DNA from: Archangium lipolyticum
Lineage (GTDB): Bacteria > Myxococcota > Myxococcia > Myxococcales > Myxococcaceae
Assembly: GCF_024623785.1 (NCBI RefSeq)
Contig: NZ_JANKBZ010000037.1
Coordinates: 1-64,000, forward strand
DNA: 64,000 bases
Direction of reading: 5' to 3'
This document shows positions 23,567 through 33,840 of the stretch, piece after piece. The position numbers and the translations under genes are program-made. The stretch's first letter is position 1. Each line of letters begins with the position of its first letter. The notes below the pieces were generated by a model. It was not told where the DNA came from. It searched no databases and saw only the letters and a list, made by a program, of their open reading frames with translations.

Positions 23567-24589
23567 TCAAACGGACAGGTCGTCCAGCACGTCGGAAAGC
23601 GTGGTGGCGTTCAAGGAACGGTCGAACCAGCGGTCGAGGGTGGCCACGTCCGTGCAGGTGAGGACGTGCTGCCGGGCCACCTCATCGACGTGTACTCCCC
23701 GCGCGACGAGAATCCGCAGGATGTCCTCGGCACGCCCTCGGCTCAGCCCCTGCTGCCGGCCCTCCTCCAGGCCCCTCGCCAGACCCTGCTGGAGTCCCCG
23801 CTCGATGAGTTGCTCGCCATAGCTGCGCATCAGCTCCTCCGCTCGTTGCTCATCCAGCACTGAATGTAACACCCCTCTGGCCGCTTCATGGACGGTCTCA
23901 TCCCCCACCCACAGCAGGTACCGGATGAGCACCACCAGATGCTCGGCCCCCTCCGGTCCCTCCTGCACCTGGGCGAAGAGCGCCACCCACTCCGGTAACT
24001 TCCGGGCCAACTCCCCACTGCGCCCATGGCGCAGCACGAGCCAGGCCAGCCGGGCCAGCGGCGGACCGGAGCGCATCCTCAACGCCTCTTCCCGCTCGGC
24101 CGTCAGGTCGTCGAGCAGGTATTCGAATCGAGGCACCAGTGCTCGCCACTGCTCTCGCTCCTCTTCGGGTAGCTCGAAGAGTTCCTCCACCCGGCGCGGG
24201 GCGGTCCAGGCTCCCTCCGACCCGTGGTACATGACGAGCGGGATGATGAGGGGGAGCAACACACTCTCGGGGTGCTCCTGGCGCCAGCGCTCCACCTGGC
24301 GCACCACGTAGCGCAGCATTCTCAGCGCCATCCACCCATCCACCGACGACTGGTGCTCCAGTAGCACGTACAGCAGCAGCGGGTGGCCCGTGCGCAGCCG
24401 GGCCGAGAAGAGCAGGTCGCTCTCGGTCTCCCTCAGCTCCGGGTCCACCACACTGCCGGGCTCCCTCCTCAGGGACGACCAGTCCACCTGCGAGACGACA
24501 TGAGAGGGCAGGACGGCGCGCAGCTCGGCGGCGGCCCGCTCGGGGTGGCCGAAGGTGTAGCGGGCGAAGAGGTCATGAGGCCCTGACAT
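23567..24589 (-). CDS. Rpn-family recombination-promoting nuclease/putative transposase
   Basis: A 340-residue protein of the Rpn (YhgA-like) family. The N-terminal nuclease core shows D58 (ETESDLL) and E78-H-Q80 (VLLEHQSS), the PD-(D/E)XK-like pattern of these enzymes, followed by PLIIPLVMYHGSEGAW, a family hallmark. The C-terminus has the typical repetitive GLQQGLARGLEEGRQQGLSRGRAE helix and a final region ending LNATTLSDVLDDLSV. Rpn proteins are Mg-dependent DNA endonucleases that raise recombination and have been linked to phage defence. A copy with an in-frame deletion lies at 33600-33840. The start at 24589 follows no strong ribosome site. Confidence 0.85.
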   Translation of the reverse strand: MSGPHDLFARYTFGHPERAAAELRAVLPSHVVSQVDWSSLRREPGSVVDPELRETESDLLFSARLRTGHPLLLYVLLEHQSSVDGWMALRMLRYVVRQVERWRQEHPESVLLPLIIPLVMYHGSEGAWTAPRRVEELFELPEEEREQWRALVPRFEYLLDDLTAEREEALRMRSGPPLARLAWLVLRHGRSGELARKLPEWVALFAQVQEGPEGAEHLVVLIRYLLWVGDETVHEAARGVLHSVLDEQRAEELMRSYGEQLIERGLQQGLARGLEEGRQQGLSRGRAEDILRILVARGVHVDEVARQHVLTCTDVATLDRWFDRSLNATTLSDVLDDLSV

Positions 24590-26662: not shown

Positions 26663-26812
26663 GTGCTCTCCTCACCGGGGCTGAGGGAGGGCGCAGCAAC
26701 TGCACGCCGAGGTGTACGGAAGCGCACGAATTGCACCCCTCCCTCCGGATTCCCGGGCAGATCGGCTGGCATGCAACTTCCAAGCAGGGTGTCCTGGAAA
26801 GGAGGAACGCCC

Positions 26813-27184
26813 ATGAACCCGTCCGCGCCCATTCCGCAAGACAGTGAGCGTCTCTCGACGCTCTCCTGCATCCAGTTGCACGGAGCCTTCGATGCCAGAG
26901 CGGCCCGGGATGTCCTGGCGCTCCTCCAGCGTCAAGCCGACGCGGGCCACCTGGAGCTGGATTTCAGCAAGGTGAGCACCTTCCAGGACTTCGCCCTGGA
27001 TCTGCTCGTCCAGGGATTGGGCCGGCTGCCGGGGCTCCATCTGAAGACGCGGGGGATTCCCAGCCACCCGGCGCGGGTGCTCCAATACCTGAGCATCGAC
27101 CCGCACACGCTCGCGCCCATGCGCCGGAGCCTCCAGTGCCCCGCCTGTCTCCCGGTGAGCGACCATCGGGACCTCGACGACTGA
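26813..27184 (+). CDS. STAS-like (anti-sigma antagonist-type) protein
   Basis: A 123-residue soluble protein with the length and order of a STAS domain: a first strand (LSCIQLHGAFDARAARDVLALLQRQA), then LELDFSKVSTFQDFALDLLVQGL, which matches the strand-loop-helix that carries the phosphorylatable serine in SpoIIAA-type proteins, and a third strand (GLHLKTRGI). The usual serine position is occupied by the TFQD segment, so regulation by phosphorylation is uncertain. A strong site (AAGGAGGA) lies six bases before the ATG. It sits just before a kinase-sigma pair, which suits a role in regulation. Confidence 0.6.
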   Translation: MNPSAPIPQDSERLSTLSCIQLHGAFDARAARDVLALLQRQADAGHLELDFSKVSTFQDFALDLLVQGLGRLPGLHLKTRGIPSHPARVLQYLSIDPHTLAPMRRSLQCPACLPVSDHRDLDD

Positions 27185-27325: not shown

Positions 27326-30300
27326 ATGAGCCAATCCTCTTCATCAGGAGCCTCGGGGTGCCCCCCCGAGCAGGTGCTGGCCGGCTTCGCATCGGGTTCG
27401 CTCCCGCGGACGGAGCGCTCGGCGCTCGAAGCACACCTGGCGCGATGCAGCGTGTGCTTCGAGGTGGTCTCCGCACTGCTCGCGGAGCTCGGCCCCGCGG
27501 CCAGCGTCTCGTCACCGGCCCAGCCGGCCCCCGTGCTGGCTCGCGGCACGGCCATGGGGCGCTACCTGCTGCTCGATCCCATCGGGGTCGGTGGCATGGG
27601 CGTGGTGTACTCGGCGTATGATCCAGGGCTCGACCGGAAGGTCGCGCTCAAGCTGCTCTCGCCCCACGGTCCTCACGGAGCCTCGTCTCCCGAGGGGAGG
27701 CTCCGGCTGCAACGCGAAGCCCGCGCCCTGGCCCGGCTGTCCCATCCCAACGTCGTCACCGTCTACGACGTGGGTACCGAGGGCGAGCAGGTGTTCGTGG
27801 CCATGGAGTTGGTGGAAGGGCAGACACTCGGGACGTGGATGTCCGCCGGCGCCCACGGCTGGCAGCAGGTGTTGCACTGCTTCCAGGAGGCGGGCCGGGG
27901 GCTCGCCGCCGCCCATGCGGTGGGGCTCGTCCATCGCGACTTCAAGCCCGACAACGTGCTCATCGGACGCGAGGGCCGGGTGCGCGTCACGGACTTCGGC
28001 CTGGCGCGGGTGACGGAGGCCACGCCGGACCCCCGCCCTGAAGACGGAGTGGGGGCCGCCCCTGGAGCGCGCACGGGTGCCCAGCCCTCGAGCCTGTCGG
28101 GCACCCAGGCCGGCACTCCCCGCTACATGGCGCCCGAGCAGTGGCTGGGCGCGGCCTCGGGCCCGTGGACGGATCAGTTCAGCTTCTGCGTGGCGCTCTG
28201 GGAAGCGCTCTACGGCGAGCACCCCTTCACCAGCGGCCCACCCGCCGCGCTGAGACAGGAAGTGGTTGCGGGCCACCTTCGCACCGCGCCCGCACAGCGG
28301 CAGATTCCCACGCGAATCCACGCGGCACTCGTGCGCGGGCTCCAGTCGGAGCCCTCGGCGCGCCACCCTTCCATGGAGGCACTGCTGGCCGTCCTGGAGA
28401 TGGATCCGGCACGGCGGCGCAGGCGCGTCGCGGCGCTGGTGGGAGCGAGCGTGTTGCTGGTGGGGTTGCTGGGGGCGGGCCTCGCGCAATGGACGTACCG
28501 CTCGGCCCAGCTGTGTGCCGGAGGGACGGCGCGCGTCCAGTCCGCGTGGGGAGCCGCGGCCCGGGAGAGCGTGCGCCGCGGACTGCTGGCCAGCGGGGCA
28601 CCCGGCGCGGAACGGACCTGGGAGCTGCTCACCCAGCGCGTGGATGCCTACACCTCGGACTGGGCCTCCATGCACCGCGAGGCCTGCGAGGCCACGCGCG
28701 TCCGGGGTGAGCAGTCCGAGCAGCTGCTCGATCGCCGCATGCTGTGCCTGGAGCATGCGCTGCGGCGCATGTCGGCCCTGGCGCGTCAGCTGGAGCACGC
28801 CGATCGCGCCACGGCGGACAAGGCGCTGGACGCAGTGCATGCGCTCCCCTCGCTGACCGAGTGCGCCAACACGGCGGCGTTGCTGGGAGCGCCGGGGTTG
28901 CCCCAGGAGGACTCCGTCCGGCAGCAGGTGCTCACGCTGCGCGGGCAGCTGGCGGAGCTGGAGACGCTCAAGGAGCTGGGCCACCTGAAGGAGGCGCTCC
29001 CGCGCGCCGAGGCGCTGACCCGGGCCGCCGAGGCGCTGGCCTACCCTCCCCTGCAGGCTGAGGTGCTCCTCCTGGAGGGTGAGCTGCTGCAACTGGATGA
29101 GCAGATGCCGCGAGCCATCGAGCGGGTCCACCTGGCGGCGCTCCGGGCGGAGAGGGGGCACGAGGACACGCTCGCCACGCGCGCCTGGACGATGCTCGGC
29201 AGGATCCACGGCGTCGAGCGCAAGGAGTTCGCCGAGGCACACCGCAGCATCGACTATGCCCAGGCGAAGCTCGACCGGCTGGGCCACCGGGACCTGCTCC
29301 TGGAGACGGAGCTGCTGGGGATCCGGGCGGGGCTGGCGGACCGGGAGGGGAAATACGCCGAGGCGATCGCGCTGGACCAGGAGCGCGTCAAGGTCCTGGA
29401 GCAGCAGCTCGGGCCGGACGCGCCCGCGCTGGCCAGCGCCCTGTACGGACTGGCCGCCTCGCTCTACATGCAGGGGCGCCTGGATGAGGCCCATACCGCC
29501 ATCCGCCGTTCCGTCGCGTTGAGCGAGCGTCACTGGGGACCCGAGACCCTGAAGCTCGCCACGGGGCTCAACCTGCTCGCCATCATCACCAAACACCGGC
29601 ATCAACTGCCCGAGGCCCGCGAGGCGTATGAACGCGCGCTGCGCATCCACGCCCGCCTGTCCGGTGAGACGTCCTCCCGTTACGCCCAGACACTGGCCAA
29701 CCTGGGCTCCCTGTTCAACGCCCTGGGAGAGAACGAGAAGGCACTCGCCGCGTTCCAGCGCGCCGTGGACATCGAGCGCGCGAGCAAGGAGCGGGACACG
29801 GATTCCCTGGCCAATGTCCTCACGAACATGGCCTCCGTGTACCGGCAGCTCGGGCGGTTCGAGGAGGCGCTGGCGGTCAACCAGGAAGCGCTCTCCCTGC
29901 GCACCGCGAAGTTCGGTCCCCGCCACGTGCTGGTGGGGGTGTCGCTGGACTCGATGGGCATCTCGCTGATGAAGCTGGGGAGGCACACCGAGGCCCTGGA
30001 GCACTTCCGGCGCGAGTTGGAGATCTTCACCGCCTCGTTCCCGGAACATCACCCCCATGTGGCCACGGCCCACTACCAGGTGGGGCTGGCGCTGACCCGG
30101 CTGGGGCGGCTCTCCCAGGCGCGCGCCTCCCTGGAGCGGGCGCTCGCCATCTTCGAGCGGCATGCGGACCTGGGCCCCGAGCAGGCGGAGACCCGGTTCC
30201 GTCTGGCGCTGCTCCAGTGGGAGAACGGCGGCGCGGATCGCTCGCGGGCGCGTCAGCGGATTCTCGAACTGCGAGAGCAGCTGGAAAAGGAAGCCCGTGC

Positions 30301-30343
30301 CGAGGTGGACGAATGGCTCGGCAATCATCCCGCATCTCCCTGA
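27326..30343 (+). CDS. Ser/Thr protein kinase with N-terminal zinc-finger-like motif and C-terminal TPRs
   Basis: A 1005-residue eukaryotic-like kinase. Residues 12-47 (CPPEQVLAGFASGSLP..., HLARCSVCFEVV) look like the zf-HC2/anti-sigma zinc finger (H37-x3-C41-x2-C44). The kinase domain is at about 80-355: glycine loop GVGGMG at 87-92, K109, E131, HRDFKPDN at 203-210 (F replaces the usual L) and DFG at 223-225. A membrane helix follows at about 379-400, then a helical region of roughly 600 residues with TPRs, best seen from about 680 (repeated LANLGSLFNALGENEKALAAFQRA and LTNMASVYRQLGRFEEALAV units). A sigma factor gene follows 22 bases later, so the pair probably forms one regulatory unit. 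Confidence 0.92.
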   Translation: MSQSSSSGASGCPPEQVLAGFASGSLPRTERSALEAHLARCSVCFEVVSALLAELGPAASVSSPAQPAPVLARGTAMGRYLLLDPIGVGGMGVVYSAYDPGLDRKVALKLLSPHGPHGASSPEGRLRLQREARALARLSHPNVVTVYDVGTEGEQVFVAMELVEGQTLGTWMSAGAHGWQQVLHCFQEAGRGLAAAHAVGLVHRDFKPDNVLIGREGRVRVTDFGLARVTEATPDPRPEDGVGAAPGARTGAQPSSLSGTQAGTPRYMAPEQWLGAASGPWTDQFSFCVALWEALYGEHPFTSGPPAALRQEVVAGHLRTAPAQRQIPTRIHAALVRGLQSEPSARHPSMEALLAVLEMDPARRRRRVAALVGASVLLVGLLGAGLAQWTYRSAQLCAGGTARVQSAWGAAARESVRRGLLASGAPGAERTWELLTQRVDAYTSDWASMHREACEATRVRGEQSEQLLDRRMLCLEHALRRMSALARQLEHADRATADKALDAVHALPSLTECANTAALLGAPGLPQEDSVRQQVLTLRGQLAELETLKELGHLKEALPRAEALTRAAEALAYPPLQAEVLLLEGELLQLDEQMPRAIERVHLAALRAERGHEDTLATRAWTMLGRIHGVERKEFAEAHRSIDYAQAKLDRLGHRDLLLETELLGIRAGLADREGKYAEAIALDQERVKVLEQQLGPDAPALASALYGLAASLYMQGRLDEAHTAIRRSVALSERHWGPETLKLATGLNLLAIITKHRHQLPEAREAYERALRIHARLSGETSSRYAQTLANLGSLFNALGENEKALAAFQRAVDIERASKERDTDSLANVLTNMASVYRQLGRFEEALAVNQEALSLRTAKFGPRHVLVGVSLDSMGISLMKLGRHTEALEHFRRELEIFTASFPEHHPHVATAHYQVGLALTRLGRLSQARASLERALAIFERHADLGPEQAETRFRLALLQWENGGADRSRARQRILELREQLEKEARAEVDEWLGNHPASP

Positions 30344-30365
30344 GTGCTAGACTGCCGGCAGCCTC

Positions 30366-31301
30366 ATGTCATTACCCTCGCCGCCTGCCCCTCCTCCCGA
30401 GCCCGACCTCTCACCGGCAGGGCTCCGCGCACGGGCCCTCGCGCTGCTGCCCCCTCCGGCCGCTCGCGCACTGGAGAAGGAGGAGCAGCTGGGGCCGATC
30501 CTCCACGCGCTCTTCGAAGCAAGCGCCCAGGGCCGGGCACGGTTCGAGATAACGGAGGACGAGTTCCTCGAGGCGCTCCTGCGGCAAGTGCCGCCAACGG
30601 GGGATGCGCTGGGGACGCTGCGGTCCCTCCACGCCGCGGACCTCGCGCTGGCATTGGGGTGCGCCGCGGGCCACCCGTTGGCCCTGGCCGGGTTCGACCA
30701 GCGCTTCGGTGCCGCGATGAGCGCCGCGCTGCGGCGGTTGGATCCCTCCCCCTCCTTCGTCGACGAGGCGCTACAAGCCGTGCGCGAGCGGCTCTTCCTG
30801 CGCCGGGAGCGGAGCGGCCCGAAGATCGCGTCCTACGCGGGCACGGGGCCGCTGGAGGGCTGGGTGCGCGCCGTCACGCTCCGGTCGGCCCTCAACCTGC
30901 GCCGCGGGGCCGCGGCCGGGGTTCCGCTGGATGAACGTCTGGCGACCGGGCTCGGGACGGACAGCGCGGGCCCGGAGCTCCAGCTCATCAAGAGCCAGTA
31001 CCGAGAGGCCTTCCAGCGGGCCTTCCGCACCGCGCTCGACACGCTCACCGACCAGGAGCTCAACATCCTGCGCCTGCACTTCGTGGGAGGGGCCACCCAG
31101 GAGCAGCTGGGCAAGCTGTACAACGTGCACCGCATCACCATGGCACGCTGGCTGACGCACGCACGGACACGGCTGCTGCTCGCGACCCAGCGGGAACTGC
31201 AGGCACTCCTGAAGGTGGAGGACGAGGAGCTGAACGACATCCTCGAGCTGGTGCGCAGTCAGCTGGCCATCACCCTCACCCGGGCGCTCCAGGCACGCTG
31301 A
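30366..31301 (+). CDS. Sigma-70-like (ECF-type) sigma factor
   Basis: A 311-residue protein with an N-terminal proline-rich part and a C-terminal sigma factor region. The stretch LDPSPSFVDEALQAVRERLFL followed by GPLEGWVRAVTLRSALNLRR resembles region 2. LTDQELNILRLHFVGGATQEQLGKLYNVHRITMARWLTHAR is a clear region 4 helix-turn-helix. The C-terminal 50 residues (ELNDILELVRSQLAITLTRAL) match the extension often seen in myxobacterial sigma factors paired with kinases. It probably directs RNA polymerase to a small regulon and is probably controlled by the membrane kinase encoded 22 bases upstream, whose N-terminus bears an anti-sigma-like zinc motif. This pairing is inferred from position. Confidence 0.85.
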   Translation: MSLPSPPAPPPEPDLSPAGLRARALALLPPPAARALEKEEQLGPILHALFEASAQGRARFEITEDEFLEALLRQVPPTGDALGTLRSLHAADLALALGCAAGHPLALAGFDQRFGAAMSAALRRLDPSPSFVDEALQAVRERLFLRRERSGPKIASYAGTGPLEGWVRAVTLRSALNLRRGAAAGVPLDERLATGLGTDSAGPELQLIKSQYREAFQRAFRTALDTLTDQELNILRLHFVGGATQEQLGKLYNVHRITMARWLTHARTRLLLATQRELQALLKVEDEELNDILELVRSQLAITLTRALQAR

Positions 31302-31369: not shown

Positions 31370-33589
31370 ATGAATTCCTCGTCCCGTCCCCGAGCACCCC
31401 TGGCCCGCTCGACGCTCCTCAAGATGGGAGTGCGGATCGCGGTCGTCATCGCCCTCTCCACGCTCTTCAGCTACCTCCACATGCTCCGCACCCTGCGCGC
31501 CGAGGCCCTGGAGCAGTTGCAGCGGCATGTCGCCGAGCGCGGCCAGCGGGAGCAGGCCATCTTCACCCTGGCCGAGGACAACCATGACTTCCTCGAGAAG
31601 GCCCTGGAGGAGAGGATCCGGGAGCTGCAACGGGAGGACGTGACCGCCCGCTTCGACAGCCTGCTCCTGCGGCTGCCCGATGGCACGGTCCGCAACCGGC
31701 TCGAGGTCGCGGACGACACGAAGAGGGTGCATGTCTTCATTCCTCCGCACGTGACGCTCGACGCCTGGTTCCGCACCCGGCTCCTGGCCGCGTACGACGT
31801 GCTCGCCAGGTATGGGCCCGCGCTCCACGTCCGTTTCAAGACGACCTACATCACCCTTCCGGAGGGGGTGATCGCGGGCTTCAGCCCCTGGACGCCCAAG
31901 TGGAGCCACGAGCTCGCGTCGGACTTCTCGCTCGCCGACTTCGAGGACTTCAAGCTCAGCAAGCCCGAGAACAACCCACGCCGGCAGACCACCTGGACGG
32001 GCATCTACAAGGATCCCGTCACCCATGAATGGATGGCCGCGGGCGCCACCCCGCTGGACCTGGACGGCCGCCATGCCGCGACGATCGGCCACGACGTGCT
32101 GCTCGACGAGTTGATGGCCCGCACCATCAACGAGCACATCCCGGGGGCCTACAACGTACTCTTCCGCGACGATGGCCAGCTCATCGCCCACCCCGAGATG
32201 CGGATGGAGAACGACAGCAGCGCCTACAACATCCTGAGCGCCACCGGGCAGGGCTCCTTGAAGGACGCGGCCCATCTGCGGAGCATCTTCGAGCGGGTGA
32301 AGAACCGCGAGCCCACGCAGACCCTCCTGGAGCTGCCGGAGTACGACGAGTACATCGCCGTGACGCGGCTGCGCGGCCCCGGCTGGAACCTCGTCACGGT
32401 GCTGCCCGAGAGCGTGGTGTCCGAGCCCGCCGTCCTCGCGGCACGCTACGTCCTGCTGCTCGGCATCCTGTCGCTGCTGGTGGAGTTGCTCATCATGTAC
32501 CGGGTGCTCCAGCAGCAGATCACCCGTCCACTGCTGACCTTGAGCCAGGCCACCGACAAGGTGGCGGCCGGTGACTTCAAGGTGGCGCTGGACACCGCAC
32601 GCGGTGACGAACTGGGGCAGCTGGCCCGCGCCTTCCAGCTCATGGCCGACGAGGTTCAGCGGCGCGAGGAGGCCCTGCGCCAAGCCAACGAGGGGTTGGA
32701 GCAGCGCGTCGAGGAGCGCACCCGCGAGCTCAAGGACGTGCACAGGCAGCTGGTGCAGACGGCCCGCCGCACCGGCATGGCGGAGATCGCCACCAACGTG
32801 CTGCACAACGTGGGCAACGTGCTCAACAGCGTCTACACCTCGGCCCAGGTCGCCAAGGAGCGCATGAAGGGAATGCGGCTGGAGCACGTGGGCCGGGTCG
32901 CCCAACTGCTCGAACAGCACCAGGCGAACCTCCCGGTCTTCCTCTCCCAGGACGAGCGCGGACGGCACCTGATGCCCTTCCTGAACGGCTTGGGGCAGAA
33001 CCTGCTCGAGGAGCGCACGGAGATCCTCTCATTGCTCGATGACGTGGGCCGCTACACCGAGCACATCGGTGACATCGTCAAGATGCAACAGAACTACGCC
33101 CGCACGCCCCGGATGCACGAGCCCGTCAACGTGGCGGAGCTGCTGGAGGATGCCTTGCGCATCAACGCGGCCGGGCTCACCCGCCATCAGGTGAAGGTGC
33201 AGCGGCACCTGGCCGCCCTACCACCGGTGATGACCGACAAGCACAAGATGCTGATGATCCTGGTCAACCTGGTCAGCAACGCCAAGTACGCCCTGGACGA
33301 GGCGCCGTTGGGCGAGCGGCTGCTGACGGTGAAGCTGGAGCGGACCACCGCCGACCGATTCCGCATCGGCATCCACGACAACGGCATGGGCATCGCGCCG
33401 GAGATGCTCACCCGCATCTTCCAGTACGGCTTCACCACGCGCGAGGAGGGACACGGCTTCGGCCTGCACTCCAGTGCCCTGGCGGCCCAGGAGATGGGCG
33501 GCTCCCTGACCGTCCACAGCGAGGGACCCGGGCGCGGAGCCACGTTCACCCTGGAACTGCCCTACCATCCACTCCAGCAGACGGCATGA
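31370..33589 (+). CDS. Membrane sensor histidine kinase (Cache-like sensor, HAMP)
   Basis: A 739-residue histidine kinase. A first helix (VRIAVVIALSTLFSYLHML) is followed by a large extracytoplasmic region to about 355, with dCache-like sequence (YKDPVTHEWMAAGATPL, VLFRDDGQLIAHP), then a second helix (YVLLLGILSLLVELLIMY). HAMP is at about 385-435, followed by a coiled coil (EEALRQANEGLEQRVEERTRELKDV). The phosphoacceptor is H479 in EIATNVLHNVGNVLNS. The ATPase domain shows the N box around 636 (NLVSNAKYALDE), DNGMGI at 670 and GHGFGLHSSA. No response regulator is adjacent, so its partner is elsewhere. The start has no strong ribosome site. Confidence 0.9.
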   Translation: MNSSSRPRAPLARSTLLKMGVRIAVVIALSTLFSYLHMLRTLRAEALEQLQRHVAERGQREQAIFTLAEDNHDFLEKALEERIRELQREDVTARFDSLLLRLPDGTVRNRLEVADDTKRVHVFIPPHVTLDAWFRTRLLAAYDVLARYGPALHVRFKTTYITLPEGVIAGFSPWTPKWSHELASDFSLADFEDFKLSKPENNPRRQTTWTGIYKDPVTHEWMAAGATPLDLDGRHAATIGHDVLLDELMARTINEHIPGAYNVLFRDDGQLIAHPEMRMENDSSAYNILSATGQGSLKDAAHLRSIFERVKNREPTQTLLELPEYDEYIAVTRLRGPGWNLVTVLPESVVSEPAVLAARYVLLLGILSLLVELLIMYRVLQQQITRPLLTLSQATDKVAAGDFKVALDTARGDELGQLARAFQLMADEVQRREEALRQANEGLEQRVEERTRELKDVHRQLVQTARRTGMAEIATNVLHNVGNVLNSVYTSAQVAKERMKGMRLEHVGRVAQLLEQHQANLPVFLSQDERGRHLMPFLNGLGQNLLEERTEILSLLDDVGRYTEHIGDIVKMQQNYARTPRMHEPVNVAELLEDALRINAAGLTRHQVKVQRHLAALPPVMTDKHKMLMILVNLVSNAKYALDEAPLGERLLTVKLERTTADRFRIGIHDNGMGIAPEMLTRIFQYGFTTREEGHGFGLHSSALAAQEMGGSLTVHSEGPGRGATFTLELPYHPLQQTA

Positions 33590-33638: not shown

Positions 33639-33840
33639 TCACACGGAGAGGTCATCCAGCACGTCGGAAAGCGTGGTGGCGTTCAGGGCCCTGTCGAACC
33701 AGCGTCCCCGCTCGATGAGTTGCTCGCCGTAGCTGCGCATCAGCTCCTCCGCTCGTTGCTCATCCAGCACCGAATGTAACACCCCTCTGGCGGCTTCATG
33801 GACGGCCTCAGCCCCCACCCACAGCAGGTACCGGATGAGC
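33639..33840 (-). pseudogene. Truncated Rpn-family gene with in-frame internal deletion
   Basis: Positions 33600-33840 are homologous to 23528-23930 of the Rpn locus. The copy begins with half of the hairpin that follows the intact gene, keeps its stop codon and last codons (LNATTLSDVLDDLSV), lacks exactly 162 bp (54 codons, matching 23633-23794) and ends at the codons for LIRYLLWVG. The nuclease half is missing entirely. Upstream, to 34050, unrelated sequence replaces the rest of the gene. It is therefore a dead fragment left by duplication or transposition, directly after the histidine kinase stop. Confidence 0.85.

Follow-up and report, generated by a model that had tools for sequence, protein, structure and literature searches.

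A zinc anti-sigma-like core at the N-terminus of myxobacterial Ser/Thr kinases encoded beside TIGR03001 sigma factors

We analysed a stretch of 64,000 nucleotides (the window) from contig NZ_JANKBZ010000037.1 (C37) of the 12.6 Mb genome of Archangium lipolyticum, in which a Ser/Thr kinase gene precedes a gene for a sigma factor of family TIGR03001 (Sig-70_gmx1, "Myxococcales family 1"; hereafter gmx1). Based on comparative sequence analysis, kinase and sigma factor form a conserved, orientation-independent pair across the Myxococcota, and the small zinc domain at the N-terminus of the kinase is, by sequence profile and modelled fold, a homologue of the sigma-gripping core of zinc anti-sigma factors and no chance motif. 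We propose a membrane receptor kinase with an N-terminal anti-sigma core, paired with its own sigma factor, in which the zinc domain would hold the sigma factor and the kinase would control its release or activity; we judge this proposal to have about an even chance of being right.

Both open reading frames (ORFs) translate cleanly, with 22 nt between the kinase stop codon and the sigma ATG (Table 1). The kinase protein begins with C12-x24-H37-x3-C41-x2-C44, in which Cys12 lies upstream of HLARCSVC (residues 37-44), followed by a short linker, the kinase domain, a single hydrophobic segment and, C-terminal to it, 619 residues (boundary from hydropathy only) containing tetratricopeptide repeats (TPR). 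The kinase domain matches Pfam Pkinase with 118.9 bits and has the catalytic Lys, HRD Asp and DFG Asp (K109, D205, D223). The original prediction, made from the letters alone, was borne out in its descriptive parts: an HxxxCxxC motif ahead of the catalytic domain (residues 83-346), a TPR-type outer part of about 600 residues (Pfam places repeats at about 700-950), a sigma factor 22 bases downstream, and K109, the lysine of the VAxK motif, as a catalytic residue. Pfam zf-HC2 scored 20.5 bits on the kinase protein, just below its cut-off of 22.2, and 23.8 bits, above the cut-off, on the same kinase in the genome scan. The sigma factor scored 213.4 bits against TIGR03001 (curated cut-off 154.6) and 41.9 bits against the general extracytoplasmic function (ECF) model TIGR02937 (cut-off 42.9). 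Pfam matched its region 4 and did not list region 2; profile matches to ECF sigma factors in PDB span both domains.

All nine sigma genes that exceed the TIGR03001 cut-off in the A. lipolyticum genome adjoin a kinase with the zinc motif. The same genome gave 46 matches to zf-HC2 with E-values of 1 or less, and among the matches listed the motif occurs in 10 of 155 kinases: 9/9 of those beside a gmx1 sigma gene vs 1/146 of the others (Fisher p = 9e-14, in a test that treats paralogues as independent, which they are not). In two further genomes, where the sigma genes were located through the family listing and by searching with the window's sigma factor, and the kinases through the zinc profile, 10/10 sigma factors and 10/11 zinc-domain kinases (G065), and 11/11 and 11/13 (G122), were paired. 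The three genomes together thus have 30/30 TIGR03001 sigma factors adjoining a zinc-domain kinase and 30/34 such kinases adjoining such a sigma factor; the zinc matches confirmed as kinases in G065 and G122 comprise 23/23 above 52 bits and one at 33.7 bits, and lower-scoring matches were checked in part, so further orphan kinases are possible. One orphan zinc-domain kinase is conserved between A. lipolyticum (L072:4570-7722, contig C17) and G065 (L371), with no gmx1 sigma gene nearby, and G122 has two more, at 1935895 and 7272460.

Of 195 Myxococcota genomes, 109 contain TIGR03001; none of 14 control genomes does (E 1e-30). At 79 named loci, a strict rule found an HxxxCxxC kinase within 3 kb of the sigma gene in 62, lying upstream on the same strand (35), upstream and divergent (12), downstream on the same strand (12) or convergent (3). 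Among the 17 exceptions, L164 and L172 carry the motif and escaped the rule, at L177 it lies about 3.1 kb from the sigma gene, L124 has the zinc ORF at a contig end, L157 a zinc domain in a frameshifted kinase, and L155 a similar domain without zinc ligands. The sequence ends near the sigma gene on at least one side at L126, L144, L167, L175, L176, L178 and L118, and no zinc-domain kinase was seen at L112, L159, L174 or L182, the last of which is an Acidobacteria record whose sigma gene matches weakly. Such a kinase was also present in 111 of a second group of 120 regions, which was hand-picked from family listings and overlaps with the named loci (47, 25, 32 and 7 in the same four orientation classes); the exceptions include the frameshifted kinase of L157 again (L306), two zinc-less domains (L312, L320) and four regions with no kinase within 3 kb of the sigma gene (L245, L308, L313, L323). 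Both sets and the own genome, minus 10 duplicates, gave 175 distinct pairs. The window pair itself is kept in the same order in two orthologous loci (L345, L346) and divergently in a third (L347), with the zinc motif conserved where the sigma factors are 90%, 73% and 59% identical. That the two genes stay linked although their orientation changes points to a functional tie and not just to joint transcription. No single ORF carrying both kinase and sigma factor was found at the 79 named loci.

Over the 175 pairs the N-terminal domain follows the consensus [CH]-P-x-E-x-x-L-x-x-[FL]-x-x-G-x-L-x(n)-H-[LV]-[DE]-x-C-x-x-C-[RQ]. HxxxCxxC was the rule by which these pairs were selected and is at 100% by construction; the upstream ligand was not selected for, and is Cys in 97% and His in 3%. 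The ligand pattern [CH] ... H-x3-C-x2-C of ZAS/ASDI domains is present in the window kinase. When a 60-member profile of the domain was compared with all PDB sequences, the top six matches were RslA (3hug, named after the fold-search listing), DdvA (two sequences), ChrR (two) and RsiW, at E 2e-7 to 0.02 (DdvA 7.5e-6). An AlphaFold model of the window's 50-residue domain has three helices and a predicted local distance difference test score (pLDDT) of 93.2, and the first 16 of 19 Foldseek rows obtained with it are chains of zinc anti-sigma factors, among them ChrR with a template modelling score (TM) of 0.83 at 0.8 Å; the E-values, from 0.8 upwards, are weak, which the small size of the domain may explain. 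VIA-align gave Z-scores of 8.8 for ChrR, 7.1 for RslA, 5.7 for RsiW and 3.9 for DdvA, with 2.7 for the best unrelated row, values that by the tool's own note can be fortuitous for helical bundles. We therefore place the weight on the agreement of sequence profile and fold.

Class-I anti-sigma domains, as described in passages of PMC7406223, contact sigma4 with helix 1 and regions 2.1 and 2.2 of sigma2 with a fourth helix. No fourth helix was found between core and kinase, either in 163 linkers (12 of the 175 rows were left out, their G-loop pattern not being found) or in the AlphaFold model of a relative (L332), in which a stretch of low confidence joins the three helices to the kinase. Between the last Cys and the kinase G-loop lie a median of 44 residues, and few helix-length runs occur in this linker, which is rich in Pro and Gly (longest P/G-free run: median 6, maximum 17, n=163). 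We therefore class the domain as an anti-sigma core homologue and not as a complete class-I (ZAS/ASDI) domain. It resembles ChrR, RslA and RsiW in its three-helix core, its [CH]-x(n)-H-x3-C-x2-C pattern and the position of its gene beside a sigma gene, and differs from them in lacking helix 4 and in bearing an active-type kinase domain where those proteins usually have a sensor or a membrane segment. At L155, L312 and L320, kinases beside gmx1 sigma factors have an N-terminal domain that keeps the pattern without the zinc ligands, a parallel to the zinc-less class-I anti-sigma domains that exist elsewhere.

These data also bear on whether the zinc domain could serve the kinase itself, by sensing redox state or zinc or by mediating dimerisation, and make no sigma contact, with the sigma factor as substrate or co-regulated neighbour. 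Some zinc anti-sigma domains act as redox sensors, according to part of PMC8999054, and zf-HC2 domains occur in other proteins of the own genome. We nevertheless consider this improbable: the three relatives keep the surrounding pattern without ligands, the zinc domains track the sigma factors (below), and the subclass above 52 bits, which consists of kinases (23/23 fetched), is set apart from other zf-HC2 proteins (below 39 bits).

Zinc-domain distances correlated with sigma distances at Pearson 0.85, with a null maximum of 0.07 in 500 re-pairings, and kinase-domain distances did so at 0.78. On ranks and with the kinase controlled for, the zinc domain retained 0.297 and exceeded 60/60 entropy-matched sets of kinase columns (average 0.095, at most 0.283). 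At sigma identities above 50%, the nearest sigma factor and the nearest zinc domain in another genome belonged to one locus in 939 of 1019 comparisons, where about a third is expected; at 20-40% identity the agreement was 821 of 1645, near expectation (110 systems, the comparisons not being independent). Within tight kinase clusters (threshold 0.35), no excess was left when zinc domains were permuted (0.297 vs a null mean of 0.296), and an excess was seen only in looser clusters. The partners thus stay together, and by these sequence distances the zinc domain is among the parts of the kinase that track the sigma factor best; this signal is consistent with contact between zinc domain and sigma factor, and is short of proof. 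A map of their interface from residue covariation (top-10 mean 1.27 vs 0.89-1.03 in six random re-pairings) was set aside because phylogeny was not removed and the effective number of sequences (Neff) was 92.

Two adjacent columns of sigma region 2.2 hold E/D in 99% and 81% of the 175 pairs (D133-E134 in the window). With this acidic core-binding patch intact, the sigma factor should be capable of binding core unaided and would need restraint. This bears on a comparison with ECF43 sigma factors, whose membrane Ser/Thr kinases are also encoded beside them (EcfP-PknT, EcfK-PknS). In passages of PMC8999054 and PMC13147305, ECF43 factors lack the acidic motif and have no negative charge in region 2.2 until phosphorylated; the descriptions of PknS and PknT there mention no anti-sigma domain. 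Control of that type, in which the sigma factor is inactive until a phosphate from the kinase restores the missing charge, fits the adjoining genes and is contradicted by the acidic columns; we set it aside as very improbable.

Beyond sigma4 the family has, in the model, an extra conserved C-terminal helix with Ser/Thr at three columns in 169, 147 and 153 of the 175 members, where the window has D291, S298 and T303. These positions are candidate phosphosites or small-residue packing positions; at the second and third columns the usual substitutes are Gly, Asn and Ala, so that packing is the likelier role of these two. The zinc domain could accordingly be a docking site rather than an inhibitor, one that recruits the sigma factor to the kinase so that phosphorylation, for example of these serines, activates it and makes the kinase a positive regulator. 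Kinase-activated sigma factors are known in EcfP and EcfK (parts of PMC8999054 and PMC13147305), the core-binding face of sigma2 would stay uncovered without helix 4, and the tail Ser/Thr are conserved. Against this, region 2.2 is acidic already, the zinc domain belongs to a family of inhibitors, and the tail shows packing-type variation and, in the window, Asp at its first column. We regard docking as possible but rather unlikely.

In the inhibitory mechanism that we favour, the zinc domain would at rest bind the cognate sigma factor and keep it at the membrane, probably through the sigma4 region, the contact seen in the structure of RslA with SigL. Once the variable outer domain (TPR in the window) receives a signal, the kinase would become active and phosphorylate the sigma factor, or itself beside the zinc domain, and so free the sigma factor to join RNA polymerase. 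Because the domain has no helix 4, we propose that a kinase lobe may supply the sigma2 contact otherwise made by that helix. Both binding by the zinc domain and phosphorylation by the kinase are steps that we infer from sequences and models. Of 174 relatives (one gapped row dropped), 173 have all three catalytic residues intact, and simple hydropathy places a hydrophobic segment after the kinase domain in 140 of 175; retention of both binding core and catalytic residues suggests that both are used.

Several findings weigh against this mechanism. The fourth helix is missing; contiguous windows of the kinase N-lobe track the sigma factor equally (up to 0.314 vs 0.297 for the zinc domain); and a tethered AlphaFold model, judged from its predicted TM (pTM) of 0.51, gave no sign of a fixed docked arrangement. 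In addition, the window has Asp (D291) and not Ser at the most conserved tail column, 4 of the 34 zinc-domain kinases in the three genomes have no gmx1 neighbour, gmx1 sigma factors at L317 and L319 adjoin kinases without a zinc domain, and a few have no kinase neighbour. The original suggestion that the kinase N-terminus directly holds the sigma factor is thus strengthened by the homology of the core and by the conserved pairing, whereas complete sequestration by residues 1-75 alone becomes less certain, only a three-helix core being present. In a bolder form, offered tentatively and as something we rather doubt, one transmembrane protein would be both anti-sigma factor and its own release enzyme: zinc core and kinase N-lobe, the latter in place of helix 4, would clamp the sigma factor, signal-driven phosphorylation, possibly of the sigma C-terminal helix, would open the clamp, and swappable outer domains (TPR, pilus-type, SAF, STAND-sulfatase) would make this a phylum-wide receptor class.

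Among known systems, DdvA, the membrane anti-sigma factor for DdvS in Myxococcus xanthus, is likewise a large protein with an N-terminal zinc core; the protein named in its PDB entry, 8rot, has this core, a CHAT domain and 991 aa. DdvA is of CHAT type, and the window protein is a kinase. The own genome also encodes two zf-HC2-TPR-CHAT proteins of about 980 aa with a make-up like 8rot (L070:4474-7431, C48; L071:4667-7606, C42). A zinc anti-sigma factor, a sigma factor and a Ser/Thr kinase meet in one circuit in RshA-SigH with PknB of Mycobacterium tuberculosis (described in part of PMC8999054), where kinase and anti-sigma factor are separate proteins. The NCBIfam model TIGR03001 covers the sigma factor only, and none of the annotation obtained here mentions a zinc-domain kinase partner. 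Each ingredient is known already: the zinc anti-sigma factor, the kinase-regulated sigma factor and the TIGR03001 family. A kinase with an anti-sigma zinc domain paired with TIGR03001 was not found in the open-access literature searched, to which the papers on EcfP/PknT, the myxobacterial kinome and DdvA did not belong, so that it may already have been described.

Both Ser/Thr kinases and sigma factors are very numerous in myxobacteria, and to our knowledge few of their kinase-substrate pairs have been assigned. In each of three large genomes, 9 to 11 kinases can here be given a sigma partner from sequence alone, and an anti-sigma core is predicted inside the kinase. If true, the proposal would merge zinc anti-sigma control and kinase-regulated sigma control, treated as separate so far, and would make a simple system available for testing in a phylum that is amenable to genetics.

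Zinc core, kinase and sigma factor are constant while the outer domains vary, from TPR in the window to a pilus-protein domain in the paralogue on C39, SAF in L332 and STAND with a sulfatase-type domain on C11. In a subset of the loci at which the sigma gene precedes the kinase gene (L148:7739-8152, L036, L132, L277, L285 and others), a small secreted PF13629 protein is encoded between them, and the outer part of the kinase bears the same pilus-formation N-terminal domain (PF13629). This subset may sense a secretin- or pilus-like assembly.

Table 1. Features of the kinase-sigma locus and its neighbours in the window
Feature	Position	Strand	Basis
Transposase_31 (YhgA/Rpn-like) gene	23567..24589	-	
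STAS_2-domain protein (anti-anti-sigma-like fold)	26663..27184	+	
Ser/Thr kinase gene with zinc domain, 1005 aa	27326..30343	+	clean ORF; start backed by orthologue L345
Zinc anti-sigma-like three-helix domain, residues 12-56 (C12, H37, C41, C44)	27359..27493	+	Pfam, profile, model and fold matches
Linker from zinc domain to kinase, residues 57-77; Pro/Gly-rich across the family, without fourth helix	27494..27556	+	linker statistics, model of a relative
Kinase catalytic domain, residues 83-346 (K109, D205, D223)	27572..28363	+	Pkinase match
Hydrophobic, probably membrane-spanning segment, residues 368-386	28427..28483	+	hydropathy
TPR repeats in outer part, about residues 703-950	29432..30175	+	Pfam
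Sigma factor gene, TIGR03001 Sig-70_gmx1, 311 aa	30366..31301	+	NCBIfam profile
Sigma region 2.2 motif FVDEALQ, residues 131-137, conserved acidic pair D133-E134	30756..30776	+	family alignment
Sigma region 4, residues 218-270	31017..31175	+	Pfam
Family-specific C-terminal helix of sigma factor, residues 286-308 (D291, S298, T303 at conserved Ser columns)	31221..31289	+	alignment, model
Sensor histidine kinase gene (HAMP, HATPase_c)	31370..33589	+	
Decayed second Transposase_31 copy	33639..33840		

The STAS_2 gene lies 142 nt upstream of the kinase gene. A partner switch based on it was considered and rejected, the gene being found there only at the window and in L345, the closest orthologue, among 211 loci (9 from the own genome, 79 named, 120 regions and 3 orthologue loci). 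The histidine kinase gene directly after the sigma gene had no match in the fetched stretches around the orthologues L345-L347. The block of kinase, sigma factor and histidine kinase is flanked by the Transposase_31 gene and its decayed copy, in which 137 nt are retained at 96% and 66 nt at 89% identity.

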